DNA of 64,000 nt. Source: Arenicola marina (Eukaryota; Annelida; Polychaeta; Arenicolidae). The stretch spans positions 31,970,133 to 32,034,132 of the forward strand of contig OZ025263.1 in the NCBI GenBank assembly GCA_964019135.1, in the 5' to 3' direction. Each line of letters begins with the position of its first letter. The first letter of the stretch is position 1. Below, piece by piece: positions 23,037 to 64,000 of this stretch. The notes under the pieces were generated by a model. It was not told the origin of the DNA, made no database searches, and saw nothing but the letters and a program-made list of their open reading frames with translations. The position numbers were made by a program, and so were the translations under genes.

Positions 23037-26000
23037 CGATTCCGCTTACGAGCTCCCTCTTCTGGCAGAGGGCGTTCCGCTTACGCGCTCCCATCTACTG
23101 ACAGAGGGCGTTCCGCTTACGAGCTCCCTCTTCTGACAGAGGGGCGTTCCGCTTACGAGCTCCCTCTTCTGACAGAGGGCGTTCCGCTGACTAGCTCCCA
23201 TCTACTGGCAGAGGGCGTTCTGCTTACGAGCTCCCATCTACTGGCAGAGGGCGTTCCGCTTACGAGCTCCCATCTACTGGCAGAGGGCGTTCTGCTTACG
23301 AGCTCCCATCTACTGGCAGAGGGCGTTCCGCTGACGAGCTCCCTCTTCTGGCAGAGGGCGTTCTGCTTACGAGCTCCCATCTACTGGCAGAGGGCGTTCT
23401 GCTGACGAGCTCCCATCTACTGGCAGAGGGCGTTCCGCTGACGAGCTCCCATCTACTGGCAGAGGGCGTTCCGCTTACGAGCTCCCATCTACTGGCAGAG
23501 AGCGTTCCGCTTACGAGCTCCCATCTACTGGCAGAGGGCGTTCTGCTTACGCGCTCCCATCTACCGACAGAGGGCGTTCCGCTTACGAGCTCCCTCTTGT
23601 GACAGAGGGGCGTTCCGCTTACGAGCTCCCATCTACTGGCAGAGGGCGTTCCGCTTACGAGCTCCCATCTACTGGCAGAGGGCGTTCTGCTTACGAGCTC
23701 CCTCTTCTGACAGAGGGGCGTTCCGCTTACGAGCTCCCATCTACTGGCAGAGGGCGTTCTGCTTACGAGCTCCCATCTACTGACAGAGGGAGTTCCGCTT
23801 ACGAGCTCCCATCTACTGGCAGAGGGCGTTCCGCTTACGAGCTCCCATCTACTGGCAGAGGGCGTTCTGCTTACGAGCTCCCATCTACTGACAGAGGGCG
23901 TTCCGTTTACGAGCTCCCATCTACTGGCAGAGGGCGTTCCGCTTACGAGCTCCCATCTACCGGCAGAGGGCGTTCCGCTTACGAGCACCCATCTACTGGC
24001 AGAGGGCGTTCCGCTGATGAGCTCCCTCTTCTGACAGAGGGCGTTCCGCTTACGAGCCCCCTCTACTGGCAGAGGGCGTTCCGCTTACGAGCTCCCATCT
24101 ACTGGCAGAGGGCGTTCCGCTGACGAGCTCCCTCTACTGGCAGAGGGCGTTCCGCTGACGAGCTTCCATCTACTGGCAGAGGGCGTTCGCTTACGAGCTC
24201 CCATCTACTGGCAGAGGGCGTTCCGCTGACGAGCTCCCATCTACTGGCAGAGGGCGTTCTGCTTACGAGCTCCCATCTACTGGCAGAGGGCGTTCTGCTT
24301 ACGAGCTCCCATCTACTGGCAGAGGGCGTTCTGCTGACGAGCTCCCTCTTCTGGCAGAGGGCGTTCTGCTTACGAGCTCCCATCTACCGGCAGAGGGCGT
24401 TCCGCTTACGAGCTCCCATCTACTGGCAGAGGGCGTTCCGTTGATGAGCTCCCTCTTCTGACAGAGGGCGTTCCGCTTACGAGCTCCCATCTACTGGCAG
24501 AGGGCGTTCCGCTTACGAGCTCCCTCTACTGGCAGAGGGCGTTCCGCTTACGAGCTCCCATCTACTGGCAGAGGGCGTTCCGCTGACGAGCTCCCTCTAC
24601 TGGCAGAGGGGGTTCCGCTGACGAGCTCCCTCTTCTGGCAGAGGGCGTTCTGCTTACGAGCTCCCATCTACGGACAGAGGGCGTTCTGCTTACGAGCTCC
24701 CTCTTCTGGCAGAGGGCGTTCTGCTTACGAGCTCCCATCTACTGGCAGAGGGCGTTCCGCTGACGAGCTCCCTCTACTGGCAGAGGGGGTTCCGCTGACG
24801 AGCTCCCTCTTCTGGCAGAGGGCGTTCTGCTTACGAGCTCCCATCTACGGACAGAGGGCGTTCGGCTTACGAGCTCCCTCTTCTGGCAGAGGGCGTTCTG
24901 CTTACGAGCTCCCATCTACTGGCAGAGGGCGTTCTGCTTACGCGCTCCCTCTTCTGGCAGAGGGCGTTCCGCTTACGAGCACTCATCTACTGGCAGAGGG
25001 CGTTCCGCTGACGAGCTCCCTCTACTGGCAGAGGGCGTTCTGCTTACGAGCTCCCATCTACTGACAGAGGGCGTTCCGTTTACGAGCTCCCATCTACTGG
25101 CAGAGGGCGTTCCGCTTACGAGCTCCCATCTACCGGCAGAGGGCGTTCCGCTTACGAGCACCCATCTACTGGCAGCGGGCGTTCCGTTGATGAGCTCCCT
25201 CTTCTGACAGAGGGCGTTCCGCTTACGAGCTCCCATCTACTGGCAGAGGGCGTTCCGCTGACGAGCTCCCATCTACTGGCAGAGGGCGTTCCGCTTACGA
25301 GCTCCCATCTACTGGCAGAGGGCGTTCCGCTTACGAGCTCCCATCTACTGGCAGAGGGCGTTCTGCTTACGCGCTCCCATCTACCGACAGAGGGCGTTCC
25401 GCTTACAAGCTCCCTCTTCTGACAGAGGGGCGTTCCGCTTACGAGCTCCCATCTACTGGCAGAGGGCGTTCCGCTTACGAGCTCCCATCTACTGGCAGAG
25501 GGCGTTCTGCTTACGAGCTCCCTCTTCTGACAGAGGGGCGTTCCGCTTACGAGCTCCCATCTACTGGCAGAGGGCGTTCTGCTTACGAGCTCCCATCTAC
25601 TGACAGAGGGAGTTCCGCTTACGAGCTCCCATCTACTGGCAGAGGGCGTTCCGCTTACGAGCTCCCATCTACTGGCAGAGGGCGTTCTGCTTACGAGCTC
25701 CCATCTACTGACAGAGGGCGTTCCGTTTACGAGCTCCCATCTACTGGCAGAGGGCGTTCCGCTTACGAGCTCCCATCTACCGGCAGAGGGCGTTCCGCTT
25801 ACGAGCACCCATCTACTGGCAGAGGGCGTTCCGCTGATGAGCTCCCTCTTCTGACAGAGGGCGTTCCGCTTACGAGCCCCCTCTACTGGCAGAGGGCGTT
25901 CCGCTTACGAGCTCCCATCTACTGGCAGAGGGCGTTCCGCTGACGAGCTCCCTCTACTGGCAGAGGGCGTTCCGCTGACGAGCTTCCATCTACTGGCAGA

Positions 26001-27958
26001 GGGCGTTCGCTTACGAGCTCCCATCTACTGGCAGAGGGCGTTCCGCTGACGAGCTCCCATCTACTGGCAGAGGGCGTTCTGCTTACGAGCTCCCATCTAC
26101 TGGCAGAGGGCGTTCTGCTTACGAGCTCCCATCTACTGGCAGAGGGCGTTCTGCTGACGAGCTCCCTCTTCTGGCAGAGGGCGTTCTGCTTACGAGCTCC
26201 CATCTACCGGCAGAGGGCGTTCCGCTTACGAGCACCCATCTACTGGCAGAGGGCGTTCCGTTGATGAGCTCCCTCTTCTGACAGAGGGCGTTCTGCTTAC
26301 GAGCTCCCATCTACTGGCAGAGGACGTTCCGCTTACGAGCTCCCATCTACTGGCAGAGGGCGTTCCGCTTACGAGCTCCCTCTACTGGCAGAGGGCGTTC
26401 CGCTTACGAGCTCCCATCTACTGGCAGAGGGCGTTCCGCTTACGAGCTCCCTCTACTGGCAGAGGGCGTTCCGCTTACGAGCTCCCATCTACTGGCAGAG
26501 GGCGTTCTGCTTACGAGCTCCCATCTACGGACAGAGGGCGTTCTGCTTACGAGCTCCCTCTTCTGGCAGAGGGCGTTCTGCTTACGAGCTCCCATCTACT
26601 GGCAGAGGGCGTTCCGCTGACGAGCTCCCTCTACTGGCAGAGGGGGTTCCGCTGACGAGCTCCCTCTTCTGGCAGAGGGCGTTCTGCTTACGAGCTCCCA
26701 TCTACGGACAGAGGGCGTTCGGCTTACGAGCTCCCTCTTCTGGCAGAGGGCGTTCTGCTTACGAGCTCCCATCTACTGGCAGAGGGCGTTCTGCTTACGC
26801 GCTCCCTCTTCTGGCAGAGGGCGTTCCGCTTACGAGCTCCCATCTACTGGCAGAGGGCGTTCCGCTGACGAGCTCCCTCTACTGGCAGAGGGCGTTCTGC
26901 TTACGAGCTCCCATCTACGGAGAGAGGGCGTTCTGCTTACGAGCTCCCTCTTCTGGCAGAGGGCGTTCTGCTTACGAGCTCCCATCTACTGGCAGAGGGC
27001 GTTCCGCTGACGAGCTCCCTCTTCTGGCAGAGGGCGTTCTGCTTACGAGCTCCCATCTACGGAGAGAGGGCGTTCTGCTTACGAGCTCCCTCTTCTGGCA
27101 GAGGGCGTTCTGCTTACGAGCTCCCATCTACTGACAGAGGGCGTTCCGCTGACGAGCTTCCATCTACTTGCAGAGGGCGTTCCGCTGACGAGCTCCCTCT
27201 ACTGGCAGAGGGCGTTCCGCTGACGAGCTCCCTCTTCTGGCAGAGGGCGTTCTGCTTACGAGCTCCCATCTACGGACAGAGGGCGTTCCGCTGACGAGCT
27301 CCCTCTACTGGCAGAGGGGGTTCCGCTGACGAGCTCCCTCTTCTAGCAGAGGGCGTTCTGCTTACAAGCTCCCATCTACGGACAGAGGGCGTTCTGCTGA
27401 CGAGCTCCCTCTTCTGACAGAGGGCGTTCTGCTTACGAGCTCCCTCTTCTGGCAGAGGGCGTTCCGCTTACGAGCTCCCTCTACTGGCAGAGGGTGTTCC
27501 GCTTACGAGCTCCCATCTACTGGCAGAGGGCGTTCTGCTTACGAGCTCCCTCTACTGGCAGAGGGCGTTCCGCTTACGAGCTCCCTCTACTGGCAGAGGG
27601 TGTTCCGCTTACGAGCTCCCATCTACTGGCAGAGGGCGTTCCGCTTACGAGCTCCCATCTACTGGCAGAGGGCGTTCCGCTTACGAGCTCCCATCTACTG
27701 GCAGAGGGCGTTCTGCTTACGAGCTCCCATCTACTGGCAGAGGGTGTTCTGCTTACGAGCTCCCATCTACTGGCAGAGGGCGTTCTGCTTACGAGCTCCC
27801 ATCTACTGGCAGAGGGCGTTCTGCTTACGAGCTCCCATCTACTGGCAGAGGGCGTTCTGCTTACGAGCTCCCATCTACTGGCAGAGGGCGTTCTGCTTAC
27901 GAGCTCCCATCTACTGGCAGAGGGTGTTCCGCTGACGAGCTCCCTCTTCGGACAGAGT
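23037..27958. repeat. 36-bp satellite array, about 137 copies, with higher-order repeats
   Basis: Head-to-tail units of 35-36 bp contain cgttccgcttacgagctccc then atctactggcagaggg. Three unit types recur: ...catctactggcagaggg, ...tctactggcagaggg and ...tcttctggcagaggg, the last with hairpin potential (ccctct/agaggg). A block of more than 1 kb recurs at an offset of 1820 bp (23551 pairs with 25371, 24061 with 25881), including a shared one-base deletion (gggcgttcgctt at 24181 and 26001). Because 36 is a multiple of three, several frames stay open and give spurious 12-residue-repeat ORFs on both strands. Each unit contains GGCAGAGGGCG, close to the CTCF core consensus. Confidence 0.95.
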
Positions 27959-50404: not shown

Positions 50405-50979
50405 ATGGCGCGTCTTGCGCCTTTGGGTCGTGCCCTCAGCGGACGCGGGCACCCAGCGGATCATCTGTTACGGACGACAGCTTACAGCACCCAGACGTGG
50501 ACATCGCGCCATCGCAGCCCGGAAGTGGGATCTGTGGGATCATTCTTGGAGCCGGTCCACGGTCGATTATTGACTCCAGGGTACATCAACCGTCGGATTT
50601 TTACTCGCTCGGCTGTTACATGGGATAAAGGTACGATGGGGTCGAGAGACGCCTTCAGATCGCTTCATGAGCTGGACTTCGACAATTACACGGTGAACGA
50701 GCTCCCCATTGATCCCAGCGATGACCCCGAGCCCCGCCAAGCCAAAGGGGTGTACACCAGGGTACCGAACCCCCCACCGCTGGCGAGACCCATTCTCGTG
50801 GCGGCCTCCTCCGGGGCATTGAAGCTGCTAGGGGTGGACCCAGATGAGGCGTCCCCCGAGAGCCTGGCAGAGTATTTCTCGGGGTCGAAACCGTTGCCTG
50901 GCGCCCAGCCCCACGGGCATTGTTACTGCGGCCATCAGTATGGTCAGTTCTCTGGCCAGCTGGGCGATGGAGCCAACAT
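50405..50979 (+). CDS. SELENOO: Selenoprotein O (SELENOO), coding exon 1
   Basis: SELENOO is a mitochondrial protein of the SelO/YdiU pseudokinase fold that transfers AMP from ATP to Ser, Thr or Tyr of target proteins. The first 45 or so residues are Arg-rich, contain almost no acid residues and suit a mitochondrial presequence. The conserved start of the domain follows (LHELDFDNYTVNELP), then VYTRVPNPPPLARPILVA, YFSGSKPLPGAQPHGHCYCG and the family signature GHQYGQFSGQLGDGANM. An in-frame TAG directly precedes the ATG at 50405, so no earlier Met is possible; Met78 (50636) is the alternative start. The donor GTGAGT begins at 50980 and splits a Met codon (AT|G). The five exons seen encode about 368 residues against roughly 670 in the human protein. 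The kinase-like catalytic loop, C-terminal Sec and SECIS would lie downstream of the window. Confidence 0.93.
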
Positions 50980-52113: not shown

Positions 52114-52255
52114 GTACATGGGTGATGTGCGGGGTCCAGGCGGCCAGCACTGGCAGCTCGCCCTCAAGGGGGCGGGCCGCACCCTGTTCGCCAGGGCCGG
52201 CACGGACGGCCGCAAGGTGCTTCGATCCTCCATTAGAGAGTTCCTCTGCAGCGAG
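52114..52255 (+). CDS. SELENOO: SELENOO coding exon 2
   Basis: A 142-nt exon encoding [19 protein letters not shown], then AGRTLFAR and [17 protein letters not shown]. The Lys of LALK (about residue 210) and the Glu of REF (about 234) sit where the family has its nucleotide-binding Lys-Glu pair, so this copy looks active. The donor GTAGGT follows at 52256. The phase fits exons 1 and 3. Confidence 0.93.
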
Positions 52256-56873: not shown

Positions 56874-57019
56874 GCGATGTTCTACTTGGGCGTGCCGACC
56901 AACCGTGCGGCCACCGTGGTGACAGGTGACGCGACTGTGTCACGTGACGAGTGGTACTCTGGCGTCAGCGTGGCAGAACCTGTAGCCGTCGTGTCACGCC
57001 TGGCTCCTGCCTTCCTCAG
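56874..57019 (+). CDS. SELENOO: SELENOO coding exon 3
   Basis: 146 nt encoding AMFYLGVPTNRAATVVTGD, then TVSRDEWYSG and VAVVSRLAPAFLR. It aligns with the human segment around EAMFHLGVPTTRAG and VVLRVASTFIR. The exon ends CCTTCCTCAG and splits an Arg codon (AG|G) with exon 4. Its last bases and donor are the seed of the minisatellite that follows: using any later donor copy would add an in-frame TAG immediately after this Arg. Confidence 0.93.
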
Positions 57020-60000
57020 GTAGGAACCAGCCTTATCCAGGTAGGAACCGGCCTTCCTCAGGTACGAACCAGCTTTCTGCAGGTAGGAACCAGCCTTCCT
57101 CAGGTACGAACCAGCTTTCTGCAGGTAGGAACCAGCTTTCCTGCAGGTAGGAAGCAGCTTTCTGCAGGTACGAACCAGCTTTCTGCAGGTAGGGACCAGC
57201 TTTCTGCGGGTAGGAATCAGCCTTCCTCAGGTACGAACCAGCTTTCTGCAGGTAGGGACCAGCTTTCTGCGGGTAGGAATCAGTCTTCCTCAGGTAGGAA
57301 CCAGCTTTCTGCAGGTAGGAACCAGCTTTCCTGCAGGTAGGAAGCAGCTTTCTGCAGGTAGGAACCAGCTTTCTGCAGGTAGGGACCAGCTTTCTGCGGG
57401 TAGGAATCAGCCTTCATCAGGTAGGAACCGGCCTTCCTCGGGTAGGAACCGGCCTTCCTCAGGTACGAACCAGCTTTCTGCAGGTAGGAACCAGCCTTCC
57501 TCAGGTACGAACCAGCTTTCTGCAGGTAGGAACCAGCCTTCCTCGGGTAGGAAGCAGCTTTCTGCAGGTAGGAACCAGCTTTCCTGCAGATAGGAAGCAG
57601 CTTACTGCAGGTAGGAACCAGCTTTCTGCAGGTAGGAATCAGCCTTCCTCAGGTAGGAACCAGCTTTCTGCAGGTAGGAACCAGCTTTCCTGCAGGTAGG
57701 AAGCAGCTTTCTGCAGGTAGGAACCAGCTTTCTGCAAGTAGGGACCAGCTTTCTGCGGGTAGGAATCAGCCTTCGTCAGGTAGGTACCAGCTTTTTGCAG
57801 GTAGGAACCAGCTTTCCTGCAGATAGGAAGCAGCTTACTGCAGGTAGGAACCAGCTTTCTGCAGGTAGGAATCATCCTTCCTCAGGTAGGTACCAGCTTT
57901 CTGCAGGTAGATACCAGCTTTCTGCAGGTAGGAATCAGCCTTCCTCAGGTAGGTACCAGCTTTCTGTGGGTAGGAATCAGCTTTCTGCCGGTAGGAACCA
58001 GCCTTCCTCAGGTAGGAACCAGCTTTCTGCAGGTAGATACCAGCTTTCTGCAGGTAGGAATCAGCCTTCCTCAGGTAGGTACCAGCTTTCTGTGGGTAGG
58101 AATCAGCTTTCTGCAGGTAGGAATCAGCCTTCCTCAGGTAGGTACCAGCTTTCTGCAGGTAGAGACCAGCTTTCTGCAGGTAGGAATCAGCCTTCCTCAG
58201 GTAGGTACCAGCTTTCTGCAGGTAGAGACCAGCTTTCTGCAGGTAGGAATCAGCCTTCCTCAGGTAGGTACCAGCTTTCTGTGGGTAGGAATCAGCTTTC
58301 TGCGGGTAGGAACCAGCTTTCTGCCGGTAGGAACCAGCCTTCCTCAGGTAGGAACCAGCTTTCTGCAGGTAGAGACCAGCTTTCTGCAGGTAGGAATCAG
58401 CCTTCCTCAGGTAGGTACCAGCTTTCTGCAGGTAGATACCAGCTTTCTGCAGGTAGATACCAGCTTTCTGCAGGTAGGAATCAGCCTTCCTCAGGTAGGT
58501 ACCAGCTTTCTGTGGGTAGGACTCAGCTTTCTGCCGGTAGGAACCAGCCTTCCTCAGGTAGGAACCAGCTTTCTGCAGGTAGATACCAGCTTTCTGCAGG
58601 TAGGAATCAGCCTTCCTCAGGTAGGTACCAGCTTTCTGTGGGTAGGAATCAGCTTTCTGCAGGTAGGAATCAGCCTTCCTCAGGTAGGTACCAGCTTTCT
58701 GCAGGTAGAGACCAGCTTTCTGCAGGTAGGAATCAGCCTTCCTCAGGTAGGTACCAGCTTTCTGTGGGTAGGAATCAGCTTTCTGCGGGTAGGAACCAGC
58801 TTTCTGCCGGTAGGAACCAGCCTTCCTCAGGTAGGAACCAGCTTTCTGCAGGTAGAGACCAGCTTTCTGCAGGTAGGAATCAGCCTTCCTCAGGTAGGTA
58901 CCAGCTTTTTGCAGGTAGATACCAGCTTTCTGCAGGTAGATACCAGCTTTCTGCAGGTAGGAATCAGCCTTCCTCAGGTAGGTACCAGCTTTCTGTGGGT
59001 AGGACTCAGCTTTCTGCCGGTAGGAACCAGCCTTCCTCAGGTAGGTCCCAGCTTTCTGCAGGTAGGAACCAGCTTTCTGCGGGTAGGAATCAGCCTTCCT
59101 CAGGTAGGTACCAGCTTTCTGTGGGTAGGAATCAGCCTTCCTCGGGTAGGAACCAGCCTTCCTCAGGTAGGAACCAGCTTTCCTGCAGGTAGGAAGCAGC
59201 TTTCTGCAGGTAGGAACCAGCTTTCTGCAGGTAGGAACCAGCTTTCTGCAGGTAGGAATCAGCCTTCCTCAGGTAGGTACCAGCTTTCTGCAGGTAGATA
59301 CCAGCTTTCTGCAGGTAGGAATCAGCCTTCCTCAGGTAGGTACCAGCTTTCTGTGGGTAGGAATCAGCTTTCTGCGGGTAGGAATCAGCCTTCCTCAGGT
59401 AGGTACCAGCTTTCTGAGGGTAGGACTCAGCTTTCTGCCGGTAGGAACCAGCCTTCCTCAGGTAGGAACCAGCTTTCTGCAGGTAGGTACCAGCTTTCTG
59501 TGGGTAGGAATCAGCTTTCTGCGGGTAGGAATCAGCCTTCCTCAGGTAGGTACCAGCTTTCTGTGTGTAGGAATCAGCCTTCCTCAGGTAGGAACCGGCC
59601 TTCCTCGGGTAGGAACCAGCCTTCCTCAGGTAGGAACCAGCTTTCATGCAGGTAGGAAGCAGCTTTCTGCAGGTAGGAACCAGCATTCCTCAGGTAGGAA
59701 CCAGCTTTCTGCAGGTAGGAATCAGCCTTCCTCAGGTAGGAACCAGCCTTCTCTAAGTAGGGACCAGCCTTCCTCAGGTAGGAACCGGCCTTCCTCGGGT
59801 AGGGACCAGCCTTCCTCAGGTAGGAACCGACCTTCCTCAGGTAGGGAACAGCCTTCCTCAGGTAGGGACCAGCCTTCCTCAGGTAGGGACCAGCCTTCCT
59901 CAGGTAGGGACCAGCCTTTCTCAGGTAGGGACCAGCCTTTCTCAGGTAGGGACCAGCCTTTCTCAGGTAGGGACCAGCCTTTCTCAGGTAGGGACCAGCC

Positions 60001-60020
60001 TTCTACAGGACTGGTACGGA
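57008..60020 (+). repeat. 21-bp minisatellite copying the exon 3 splice donor ('mirage' type)
   Basis: About 140 head-to-tail units begin GGTAGGAACCAG and end CTTTCTGCA or CCTTCCTCA. The first unit is the real junction (gccttcctcag|gtaggaacc). Units form higher-order trimers of about 63 bp (ending CTGTG, CTGCA, CCTCA) between 57900 and 59560. Units become more uniform (ggtagggaccagcctttctca) at 59740-60000 and fade by about 60110. Each unit holds an acceptor-like pyrimidine-CAG abutting a donor-like GTAGG. Open frames in it (for example 465 codons at 57795-59192) are artefacts of the 21-bp period. Confidence 0.95.
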
Positions 60021-60422
60021 CAAGGCCTTCCTCCGGTAAAATGAAACGTTCTGCATGTAAGAACCAGCGTTACGCGCATAGGAACCAGCCTTTCTCGGTA
60101 GGCACTATGCTTTCAACTAATATATCGTACATATTAATCTAGCATTTCTTGGGAAAAAATCCGTGGCTGCCATTAGCATTTCACAATGTGGATCATAGGG
60201 ACCATATAATACATGTGAACGATACTTTATACTATACAGTCGGAATATATCCATGTGTGAGGGACCTTAGCGTGTTGTGGATCCTGTTTAACGAAAATGA
60301 TTATTATTGCCATTACAATTAGTACTGTACGATCTCTGTCACAGCGCCTCAGGCTATGAATGTAGCACAGATCTAAGTCGCACTGTGCATTGTAAGCCAC
60401 GTGGTTGCTTGGTCTGCTGCAG
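60021..60422 (+). other. SELENOO intron 3, distal part
   Basis: Unique sequence ending in the acceptor gtctgctgcag at 60422. Nothing else recognised. Confidence 0.8.
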
Positions 60423-60546
60423 GTTTGGTAGCCTCGAGACTGTTAAGACCGCTGATCCAGTGACCGGCAAGAGCGGCCCCAACGCAGGAGATCGGGATCT
60501 GCTGCGAACATTCCTGGATTTCACCTTGCGACATTACCTCCCCGAG
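60423..60546 (+). CDS. SELENOO: SELENOO coding exon 4
   Basis: 124 nt. With the split Arg it encodes FGSLETVKTADPVTGKSG, then RDLLRTFLDFTLRHYLPE, matching human FGSFEIFKSADEHTGRAG and the following helix. Donor GTGAGT at 60547. Confidence 0.92.
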
Positions 60547-60984
60547 GTGAGTCCCGATCAGCGTCGCTTAGCTGCTCCATAAGCAACCCACATGACTGTT
60601 TATTAACATAATGAGGGCAACAGTTGTCGATGAAAGGTCCGCCTTCCGTGCTGGTTTTCGCCTTATCGATGAGATATTTAATGTGTATGATATGATTTGA
60701 CATCGATATTATATATATAACCCACGACATCACGAGTTCATGCGCCGTGATAATATTAATTGTACTATTCGGAATTGCCCTTTAGAGAGCCTGTATTGAA
60801 CGTCTTGAGAAAATAGCATATACAATTTTATGCATGGTTTATTTAATATTAATAGCGAACGAAATGACGGATTGCTTTTGGCCGTTACATGTACATTACT
60901 CACTTTGCTTCTACTGTAGACTGTAATTTGTATGTCATAAATATTATAATAAATATGATAAATTAATGTGAGGTTGTCCTCCAG
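60547..60984 (+). other. SELENOO intron 4
   Basis: AT-rich, with GTGAGT donor and gtcctccag acceptor. No repeat at its donor. Confidence 0.85.
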
Positions 60985-61100
60985 GTCATTGGGCAGCGCG
61001 AACCAGGGTCCGCCGACCTATATCTGTCGCTGTACCAGGAGGTGGTGAAGAAGACTGCTGAGACTGTCGCCCATTGGCAAGCCATCGGCTTCTGTCACGG
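60985..61100 (+). CDS. SELENOO: SELENOO coding exon 5
   Basis: 116 nt encoding [39 protein letters not shown]. The end matches human VAEWQCVGFCHG, directly before the catalytic-loop segment (VLNTDNMS in human), which must be in the next exon and was not found in the window. The exon ends TGTCACGG with donor GTAAGTT at 61101; this junction is tandemly copied in the intron. Confidence 0.92.
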
Positions 61101-61575
61101 GTAAGTTACTGGATAGCTGTTCTCTGGTATATCTCATTCCGTCACTGGTAAGTTACTGGATGGCTGTAATCTGCTGGTGTTCTCTCCTATAACTCATTCT
61201 GTCACAGGTAAGCTACTGAATGGCTTTAGTCTGCTGCTGTTCTCTGATATATCTTATTCCGTCACGGGTAAGTTCCTGCATGGCTTTTATCTGCTGTTCT
61301 CTGGTATATCTCATTCTGTTACCGGTAAGTTACTGGACGGCTGTAATCTGCTGGCGTTCTCTGGTATATCTCATTCTGTCACGGGTAAGTTCCTGCATGG
61401 CTTTAATCTGCTGTTCTCTGGCATATCTCATTCTGTCACGGTTAATTTACTGGCCGGGCTTTAATCATGCTGGTTTTCTCTGATTTATCTTCTTTTGTCT
61501 CGGTTAAGTTGCTGAATGGCTTTAATCTGCGTCTGGTATGTCTCCGTTTGTCGCGGGCAAGTAGCCCATTTCTCA
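61088..61575 (+). repeat. Minisatellite of about 60 bp copying the exon 5 splice donor
   Basis: About eight units, each with ttctgtcacgggtaagttac followed by tggatggctgtaatctgctg and ttctctggtatatctcat. Donor-like GTAAG copies lie at 61101 (real), 61148, 61208, 61268, 61325 and 61385; later units decay (gttaat 61441, gttaag 61503, gcaag 61559). The first spacing is 47, the rest 56-62. As in intron 3, the next in-frame codon after the junction is a stop (TAA). Confidence 0.92.
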
Positions 61576-61679
61576 CTGGTAACCGATAGGAATCTGTTAG
61601 GAGTAAGTTAACTAATTTCCCATGTGCAAACCATTAGATTTACAGTAACGTTACATGTTCATGTATCATCATCATCATA

Positions 61680-61922
61680 TGGCGGATCCAGGAAATTAAA
61701 AAAGGGAGGGGGTGGGGGGGTCCACTGACCGGGGGGGGGGTCTCTGAACAAAGGTCCTCCTATTAGTTATGACCGGGGGGGGGGCTCATCACCGCCTAAG
61801 ATAGCGTTCTTCCTACGCCTAAGGTGGTCTAAATTGCGCTTTGAAAAACAGCATTCGTCTTTAAAAAGGGGGGTCCAGGGGTTCCGGACTCCCCCCCCCC
61901 CCCGCCCCCATCCGCCCCTGTC
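61680..61922. repeat. G-rich 'GGCGGATCC' MITE-like repeat in SELENOO intron 5
   Basis: It starts ggcggatccaggaaattaaa and ends cccccatccgcccctgtcat. It contains agatagcgttcttcc and three G or C runs. Confidence 0.65.
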
Positions 61923-62095
61923 ATCACATGGCGGATGAGAAAAATCGCCCCTCCTGTCCCTACTATCCTAGCACATCACTGCATATCTACTAATAACGGA
62001 TGTCATTATTTTCGCTCTTCGGATATTACTTTAGAGACTCTGTCGGCACAGGCATCGGACAGTAGTTTTTGGGGTCCGCTCCACCCCGCACCCTG

Positions 62096-62253
62096 ACCCC
62101 AGTTCTGTGGCTGTAGGACGGGCAACACTCGGACAGGGCCCGTCCTACAGCCACGGAACTAGGGCTACCCTCACCCCACCCCGCCCCCTGGCGCCCGTCC
62201 TACAGCCACAGAACTAGGGCCACCCTCACCCTACCCCACCCCCTGGCGCCCCA
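62096..62253. repeat. 23-bp stem hairpin plus direct repeat of its right arm
   Basis: The left arm at 62101-62123 (agttctgtggctgtaggacg then ggc) pairs with 62138-62160 (gcccgtcctacagccac then ggaact) across a 14-base loop, with one mismatch. The right arm plus about 35 following bases is repeated at 62194-62253. Intronic. Confidence 0.75.
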
Positions 62254-62329
62254 TGATTACAGTATCTATGTTGGTGTTGGACACATACTCAATGCCCCAT
62301 TTCAAAAAGAACATGGGTTAACAAGGGGC

Positions 62330-62650
62330 TGATTTAGGGGCCGGCGGGGATGCAAAGTAATAGTCAGGCTTTCCGACGAAATATATCGGAAAGTGACATT
62401 TTGTAGATGCAACCTAAAGGCTGAACCAAGACGGGGAAGGGGGTGTTGTTTAAACCCATCCACTCAATCAAGCGGTTGTTAAGGACTGTTAAAGTCGAAA
62501 AAAAATTCGACCCCCCTCTCCCCGTTGTAAACTTAAAATTGGTGGACACTTACGGTCGTTTTCATCCCCTCCCCCCCCCCCCCCCGGTCGCAAGTTTTTT
62601 AAGAGAGCCCCTCTTTAAGAGAGTATTTCCAGATCCCTAAATCCGCCCCT
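62330..62650. repeat. G-rich 'GGCGGATCC' MITE-like repeat, reverse orientation
   Basis: It ends cctaaatccgcccctgg and includes ccccggtcgcaagttttt, the reverse of the family's internal phrase. The left end (gctgatttaggggccgg) is less certain. Confidence 0.5.
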
Positions 62651-62684
62651 GGTTACCATTGCTAGGCTCTATCCTTTATCCTGA

Positions 62685-63120
62685 GGGGCCGCCTCGATAG
62701 CTCAGTGGGTTAGAGCGCTCGCTTGAAGTGCTCTGGGGCCGTATTACTAATCGCCACTTGGGCTACGCCAGTAGACTTAGCGCTAGGTGGAAGACTTGTC
62801 AAGCGATTGTCGGGTTCAAAATACATCAGTAGTCACCCAAGATGTGGATTTTTTTAATTAGGAAAGGGCTAAAGTTATATTGAATTAGATTGAAGAATTA
62901 TGAATACGGCCCCTAGCCATCTGAAAGCCAAACGGCACGTGGATCGGGGGTACGAGCCCTGCTGTGGCCATGTCTGTGTTGTCGCAAGATAAAGATCCCA
63001 TGTCCTTCTTCGTAAAGAGTAGGGGGTTACCCCCGGAGACATGGCTTCACTCTCCCTTCCTTCTCCCATTGACGCGATATGACCAAAAGTGGTTAAAGCG
63101 TCCTGAATATGCAACCAACC
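62685..63120 (+). repeat. tRNA-derived SINE, family A, split by a MITE
   Basis: The head at 62685-62734 (tagctcagtgggttagagcg) and the body at 62914-63120 (cacgtggatcggg, ccttcttcgtaaagagtagg, gaatatgcaaccaacc) are separated by the insertion at 62735-62913. Confidence 0.85.
62735..62913. mobile_element. 179-bp MITE inserted in a SINE
   Basis: Inverted termini GGGGCCGTATT and AATACGGCCCC. The GGGGCCGTATT end resembles PIF/Harbinger-type MITEs, but a clear 3-bp target duplication is not visible. Confidence 0.7.
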
Positions 63121-63894
63121 CTAATCCTGATCCCAACAGAAACGATGCGAACGTCGTAGGTCAATGTGCTGCTCAGACAGACCAACCAATCAACAACCTT
63201 TGTTGTTGTTATGATCACTCCATGTATGGCTCCAACTAAAGGCCATTTTATGACCACAGCTAATTCCCTGAAATTGAATTGCATGGGGCAAAAAACAAGA
63301 TGACAAAGGACTGGAGCTGTTCTTTGTGTAACAGTCATTCCTGCTTCCTATAATTTCCTGTTTACAGCCAATTATTAGCACTTTCTCCGTGTGATGGGGC
63401 GATAGGTTTCCTGCCCATCATGTCGTCGTTTCACACCAGGCGAACACCGGTCATTTCGCTCTTCTCGTCAGTTTAAGTAGCTGTGATTATGATTCATCGT
63501 TCAGAAGTCAGATCTTTCAGATCGAATATGTGTCAGATAAAATCAGCTGTACTCAGCTGATGCTAATGTACTGCCGTATATTAGTGTGAGTTATGGGCTG
63601 TGTTGGCTACCCGTGAGAGGGTGTGTGTGTGTGTGGGGGGGGGGGGTTGCTCAAACAGGTTTAATTCTGTTAAGTTACATAGGTGGAATGCTTCCACTCG
63701 CCCGCATTGTTTTTTAGGCCAGTTGAACAGCATTTTCCATGGTAACATTATACATGTGCCATTGCCTGCGTGTATATTAGATTGTACTGGGATGCGACAT
63801 AAATTTCTGCCATGTGCACCCTACACCCCCCCCCCCCCCCCACCCCACCCACCCGGCCCCACCCCGCCAAGTGTCTTTATTGCATCAGCAATCA
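63121..63894 (+). other. Presumed SELENOO intron 5, distal part
   Basis: GT/G tract at 63621-63648 and C tract at 63824-63845. I searched for the exon encoding the HGVLNTDN-type catalytic loop and did not find it. Confidence 0.4.
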
Positions 63895-64000
63895 TTTCTG
63901 CGGGTAGGAATCAGCCTTCCTCAGGTAGGTACCAGCTTTCTGAGGGTAGGACTCAGCTTTCTGCCGGTAGGAACCAGCCTTCCTCAGGTAGGAACCAGCT
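63895..64000 (+). repeat. Exact copy of part of the intron-3 minisatellite
   Basis: These 106 bases equal 59369-59474 base for base, including a variant (ctgagggtaggactcag) that occurs only once in the main array. The window ends inside it. Confidence 0.93.

Follow-up and report, generated by a model that had tools for sequence, protein, structure and literature searches.

A mirage-type minisatellite spanning a splice donor of a SelO gene in an annelid

Most of intron 3 of a SelO gene in this annelid consists of a 21-bp minisatellite that begins inside exon 3 and reproduces the end of the exon, together with its splice donor, in 142 further copies. It is quite likely that the array is a passive minisatellite of the mirage type, a by-product of a short tandem duplication across the donor, and that it is removed with intron 3. 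The gene lies in the window, by which we mean the whole analysed stretch of 64,000 nucleotides (C18:31970133-32034132 of an 867-Mb assembly); positions are those of the window unless a contig or locus is named, and a slash within a sequence marks a splice junction or a copy of one.

The SelO gene and the exon origin of the array

The gene, which we call SelO-A (SELENOO type), is on the + strand; it starts near 50.4 kb and extends beyond the window, with exons 1-5 inside. The family assignment had been made from the sequence alone and is borne out by the hand-joined SelO-A exons 1-6, which match Pfam SelO (PF02696, E 1.4e-71, residues 49-324). Members of the SELENOO family have a selenocysteine near the C-terminus. 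Two further SelO loci are present in the genome, a second gene on the same contig (SelO-B) and a third locus, C11:9408843-9410720, that has long coding stretches and no interruptions. The junctions give lengths of 4.6 and 3.4 kb for SelO-A introns 2 and 3, and the features referred to below are as follows.

50405..50979, + strand: SelO-A exon 1, from open reading frame, homology and junction; open frame from 50405; donor AACAT/GTGAGT
52114..52255, + strand: SelO-A exon 2, from homology and junction
56874..57019, + strand: SelO-A exon 3; last codons CCT GCC TTC CTC AG, coding P-A-F-L-R
57006..60009, + strand: 21-bp array of 143 units, the genuine exon/donor unit and 142 copies
57020-60422, + strand: SelO-A intron 3, 3.4 kb, about 88% array
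60010..60110, + strand: degenerate distal copies of the unit, from direct reading of the sequence
60423..60546, + strand: SelO-A exon 4; acceptor TCTGCTGCAG/GTTTGG; donor CCCGAG/GTGAGT
60985..61100, + strand: SelO-A exon 5; donor TGTCACGG/GTAAGT
61090..61530, + strand: second donor-spanning array, bearing the exon 5 tail and donor (TRF 61118-61530, period 60)
63895..64000, + strand: about six 21-bp units in intron 5, continuing to 64022, 22 bases beyond the window end; best match 97.8% to 59359-59496

TRF reports the intron 3 repeat as a single array (57017-60009, period 21, 142.2 copies), and wrap-around alignment from 57007 resolves it into 143 units, 134 of them of 21 bp, seven of 22, one of 20 and one partial unit of 15. 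The roughly 140 tandem sites that the sequence-only reading had traced to the exon 3 donor are real, and they begin 14 coding bases before the end of the exon. The same reading had every unit as CAG/GTAGG, which overstates their uniformity: AGGT is present in only 106 of the 143 units and GGTA in 137, CAGGTAGG occurs 87 times, and the A at -2 of AG/GT is retained in 111. The two GT columns are conserved in 141/143 and 142/142 units, and three non-splice columns in 143/143 each. The splice bases are not specially conserved within the array, and the -2 A is among its more variable columns. Two main unit types, exon-like CCTTCCTCAG and changed CTTTCTGCAG, are intermixed, often as E-I-I triplets, while almost all units at the distal end are exon-like. 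Exact 200-bp blocks recur inside the array at spacings of 546 and 483 bp, and these internal duplications, with the E-I-I pattern, point to ordinary minisatellite turnover.

The exon 3 tail CCTGCCTTCCTCAG (57006-57019) and the corresponding part of the unit, CCAGCCTTCCTCAG, are identical at 13 of 14 bases and both code for P-A-F-L-R. Because the exon residues also align with another SelO protein without a gap (junction LAPAFLR/FGSLE, hand-joined exons against the solved SelO 6eac), exon 3 is the source of the unit. The unit does contain the exon's last bases and the donor, as had been claimed: the 21-mer at the junction, 14 exon and 7 intron bases, matches the unit consensus at 20/21 positions, and among 21-mers with their start in 1-57000 or 60121-63880 the best match is no higher than 14/21. 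The description of the array as a junction-spanning minisatellite made from the exon, a mirage, is upheld, since the unit spans exon and intron and its copies have the strength of donors (see below). An intron matching SelO-A intron 3 in place and phase is present in SelO-B, with the donor AAG/GTAGGA and no array there, so the intron predates the array unless SelO-B has lost its own. SelO-B (C18:19080189 onward; L033, L034) contains several large arrays, situated within its introns or close to them (25 bp x 62 and 39 bp x 96 are examples), and none of them is at the tested junctions.

We envisage that the array was founded by a short tandem duplication across the exon 3 donor, taking in 14 exon and 7 intron bases, and that slippage, unequal exchange or block duplication would have carried it to 142 extra copies. 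Selection on the protein would block growth into the exon, and the spread would thus have been into the intron. An origin elsewhere, with a dispersed or shared repeat unit landing at the donor, is extremely improbable. The units in intron 5 and the weaker matches that a genome search with the 21-bp unit returned (at least those on contigs C3 and C743, among 4 candidate places scored) speak for such a mobile unit. The unit, however, includes the coding tail of the local exon, the sequence of the intron 5 piece is most readily understood as copied from the main array, and C3 carries another unit, a 23-mer similar to the end of the open reading frame upstream of it. The look-alike on C743 was discarded, its consensus having no GT on the matching strand.

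The C3 array (L027, 4586-5706) has 49 copies of 23 bp with CAG/GTGAGGAACCAGCCCACCCC and directly follows an open reading frame whose end resembles the unit at 15/18 positions, as judged by eye; this open reading frame has no Pfam hit, and the array is a possible candidate for a further large donor-spanning array. A minisatellite core common to the arrays, GGAACCAGC, was also considered and set aside as too weak, since it occurs 6 times in the 187 kb covered outside the SelO arrays, where 1.2-1.4 would be expected, and one locus accounts for three of these. Tandem arrays make up 21% of the window (TRF, score 50, period 9 or more), or 16% without the SelO arrays; a 36-bp array of about 137 copies occupies 4.9 kb at 23040-27944, and six arrays at 16835-37918 have open reading frames beside them.

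Splice-site strength of the copies

Sites were scored with general splice-site frequency tables instead of trained models. On this scale the true exon 3 donor reaches 4.74, close to the median of 4.52 for 51 sampled donors (see the survey below), and 87 of the 156 donor-like sites in the array (20 of which are the second of a close pair) score at least as high, the true site included. An AG/GT core, the AGGT arrangement of dual-specific sites, is found at 126 of the 156. As acceptors these 126 sites are poor, with a median score of -0.04 against 3.6 for 47 sampled acceptors, whose median is reached by two and whose lower quartile by four. The AG-free run is 10 nt at 96 of the 126, compared with a median of 35 in the sampled acceptors, one of which (1/47) has 12 or less, and a scan of the array for branch points found no CTRAY and five occurrences of the looser YTNAY. 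The proposal that each unit looks at once like a 3' and a 5' splice site is thus correct for the donor half and fails for the acceptor half.

These figures bear directly on the suggestion of a recursive-splicing track or series of zero-length exons, in which each AG/GT would serve first as an acceptor and then as a donor and intron 3 would be removed stepwise. The abundance of AG/GT cores of donor strength speaks for this, and dual-specific AGGT sites do exist and are often weak by motif score, according to the available part of one study (PMC10809524). The genuine acceptor of SelO-A exon 5 is weak as well (score -0.3, AG-free run 12), so the acceptor score is not absolute. A ratchet point, however, joins a strong acceptor with an AG-free zone and a branch point to a donor, and the array offers low acceptor scores, short AG-free runs, no CTRAY and a variable -2 A, in an intron of just 3.4 kb, while fly ratchet points lie mostly in long introns. 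We therefore do not retain the ratchet interpretation, to which we give very little probability.

A second possibility is a poison-donor ladder, in which use of a later donor would bring in an in-frame stop and nonsense-mediated decay, and copy number would tune SelO output. The observation that TAG directly follows the true junction is accurate: TAG is the first whole codon there, the donors of the next units would add it in frame, and the exon 3 frame meets 33 stops through the array. With copy donors that match the true one in strength, the ingredients of such a ladder are present, but like arrays in myosin and kinesin genes differ in their units and frames, and we consider the ladder improbable.

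It is scarcely probable that the array acts as a U1-binding platform, with about 140 donors recruiting U1 and thereby guarding the transcript from early polyadenylation or enhancing exon 3. The sites are dense and of donor strength, but their columns are not preferentially conserved, and they are predicted to be less accessible in the RNA (median 4e-4) than sampled true donors (2e-3). Predicted folding of four 210-nt pieces lies 1.5-2.0 SD below mononucleotide shuffles. The idea that folding hides the copies finds no support: accessibility is lower at the array donors than at sampled donors, but it is low at the true donor too, whose value of 3e-5 does not favour donor 1, and counts against the passive reading.

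In the passive mirage that we favour, the copies would be donor-like merely from being copies and harmless while the first donor is in use; that donor, anchored to the exon, would be spliced, and the whole array would leave with intron 3. Exon definition would favour an upstream donor where introns are long, and the lengths of SelO-A introns 2 and 3 fit this. Among near-equal competing human donors the upstream one wins about 60% of all events, with upstream preference where the flanking introns are long, in the part of that study available (PMC9225289), and a rate of this size would be a weak basis for picking one donor of 143. Amphioxus mirages appear to be compatible with regular splicing, as reported in the accessible part of their description (PMC3087553).

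Arrays at other donors and acceptors

The exon 3 array is not the only one of its kind in SelO-A. The exon 5 donor array comprises ten sites, the genuine one included, in steps of 46-62 bp, the last at about 61602 and beyond the TRF end. Scores are 6.4-7.1 at sites one to six and 2.2 at the last; the three sites between have lost GT. In all, 2/8 donors and 0/6 acceptors of SelO-A are tandemly copied, and 0/1 donors and 0/2 acceptors of SelO-B.

A wider view comes from 61 myosin and kinesin exons chosen from profile-hit tables, blind to the sequence: 21 lie in four stretches selected by exon density and 40 are single exons selected by rank, with hits containing stops and genes already taken left out (C4:2704980 was omitted as probably the same gene). 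Junctions were set by script near the ends of the profile hits, so some may be off, and the upstream flank of L072 is 11 bases shorter than assumed. Donors scoring below 1.0 (10/61) and acceptors below 0.5 (14/61) were dropped, leaving 51 donors and 47 acceptors. A junction was counted as copied if 20/24 bases matched within 130 bp, and control positions that were incomplete or of low complexity were dropped (three at +30, one at +50, one at -70).

By this measure 7/51 donors and 2/47 acceptors have a tandem copy (p=0.16, in two motor families only). Intronic controls on the donor side are copied in 8/48 (+30), 10/50 (+50) and 9/51 (+70) cases, and on the acceptor side in 4/47 (-30), 3/47 (-50) and 4/46 (-70); exon-interior controls give 5/51 on the donor side against 0/47 on the acceptor side (p=0.057). 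On the donor side TRF cover amounts to 11-13/51 per 20-bp bin from +20 to +200 and 7/51 at 0 to +20, then 7/51 in the last 20 bases of the exon, 5, 3 and 0 of 51 further inward, and 1 and 2 beyond. Upstream of acceptors it is 10/46 at -200, 5-9/47 between, 3/47 at -40 and 2/47 at -20, and past them 1/47 where the exon begins, 0/47 over the following 40 bases and 1-2/47 deeper inside. Arrays apparently extend across donors almost as readily as they occupy introns and become sparse at acceptors, although the single comparisons are not significant. A special attraction of arrays to junctions is not supported, as donors are copied no more often than the intronic control at +50 (p=0.44); the pattern is one of tolerance at donors, not of targeting.

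The seven sampled donor arrays repeat in steps of 32; 36-37 (one 32); 62; 71-73; 97-98; 99-100; and 119 bp. These are mostly not multiples of 3, which argues that the copies are not maintained as coding sequence. The full donor score of the true site is kept in every copy, or in all except the last, which could reflect youth or homogenisation, and also constraint. Among acceptors, one of the two cases is a kinesin array of 52 bp x 5.7 (L052, C14:38581000-38584800, reversed, 1775-2068).

We suppose that the process outlined for SelO-A would be widespread in this annelid, with introns rich in arrays, donors tolerating them and acceptors having fewer, since copies at an acceptor would place additional AGs and branch regions ahead of the true site and may be selected against. 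Should the sample prove representative, roughly one donor in seven would be followed closely by a tandem copy of itself, exact or nearly so, and the genome would amount to a natural competition test, across many genes, of how the spliceosome chooses the exon-proximal donor among equals. Such arrays would also keep providing raw material from which new introns, longer exons or microexons could arise, and mirages, described for a few genes of amphioxus, would prove general in another phylum. At donor arrays, standard gene prediction and the mapping of short reads probably misplace the junctions.

One sampled array differs in character from that of SelO-A. In L051 (C7:32806500-32815000, reversed, 852-1087) a myosin-head exon tail recurs at seven sites, the genuine one included, just before the exon coding for GESGAGKT. 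Poly-C and CACAG precede most of these tails, and four exact units have acceptor scores of 1.8-4.4 and AG-free runs of 24-25 nt. To judge from their sequence, the units resemble 12-nt in-frame microexons, and the dual-site idea, unlike in SelO, is plausible there. This leads to a bolder reading, which we think unlikely as a whole: donor-spanning arrays would be a widespread, splicing-tolerated class in this annelid whose copies are truly spliced in some genes. With AG/GT units in the same register, a splice from unit to unit would restore the exact junction and be self-healing against the choice of a wrong donor, and the L051 units, CACAG/TGTCATCATCAG/GTACGT before the P-loop, could supply variable microexon inserts.

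The annelid host and known systems

The host had been taken for an amphioxus, Branchiostoma, an assignment contradicted by its mitochondrial gene order and globins. On the 15.9-kb mitochondrial contig C762 the recognised protein genes (named from their translations) are all on one strand, as are 21 of the 22 tRNA calls, in what we take to be the Lumbricus-type annelid order. Two globin pieces find their best matches among giant extracellular haemoglobins (1yhu, 3wct, 1x9f), presumably those of Riftia, Lamellibrachia and Lumbricus. The GFP family (PF01353), which is abundant in amphioxus, has no hit in this genome, nor in any control genome, and is weak evidence alone.

Amphioxus mirages, invoked in the sequence-only reading as the precedent, are nevertheless the right one as to kind. 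In the available parts of their descriptions they are found in Adh3, the globins BflGb6 and BflGb9, troponin C and PGBD5 (PMC3087553, PMC3902484), as tandem repeats over an exon/intron boundary, many with a repeated AG/GT, with intronic copies and an ordinary coding exon retained, and all of this applies to SelO-A, whose array, judged by its sequence, falls under the definition of a mirage; the kind is known, the phylum new. The differences are of host and scale: the SelO-A array is annelid and has 142 extra copies, where the two BflGb6 haplotypes have 6 and 3 units, and two mirages occur in one annelid gene and at 7/51 donors of a blind sample. Splicing and length variation were examined for the amphioxus mirages, whereas the annelid arrays are known here from the sequence of one assembly.

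Other systems share single features with the array, as far as the accessible portions of the sources go. The view of one site as both acceptor and donor, put forward as unreported, has been published as 'dual-specific splice sites', and the UBC tandem array in the same paper (PMC10809524) likewise consists of tandem AGGT units whose whole-unit removal keeps the junction exact; the UBC units, however, are coding and were shown to be spliced both ways, whereas those of SelO-A are intronic, contain stops in the exon frame and score poorly as acceptors. Ratchet points, too, have abutting acceptor and donor motifs, but those of flies are highly conserved and predominantly in long introns (PMC8605326), unlike the weak acceptor halves and 3.4-kb intron of SelO-A. 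Intron gain by tandem duplication of AGGT or boundary segments (PMC4974935) resembles the putative founding duplication across the boundary and differs in that the SelO-A intron, shared with SelO-B, already existed. Earthworm metallothionein genes provide large intronic tandem arrays in another annelid, with units of 25-216 bp in intron 1; the available part of that paper describes none that spans a boundary (PMC12783039), whereas the SelO-A array does. In the open-licence literature we found no report of junction-spanning minisatellites in annelids. What may be new relative to the amphioxus mirages is the scale, with 142 extra copies at one donor, and the apparent frequency of such arrays across genes, with its asymmetry between donors and acceptors.
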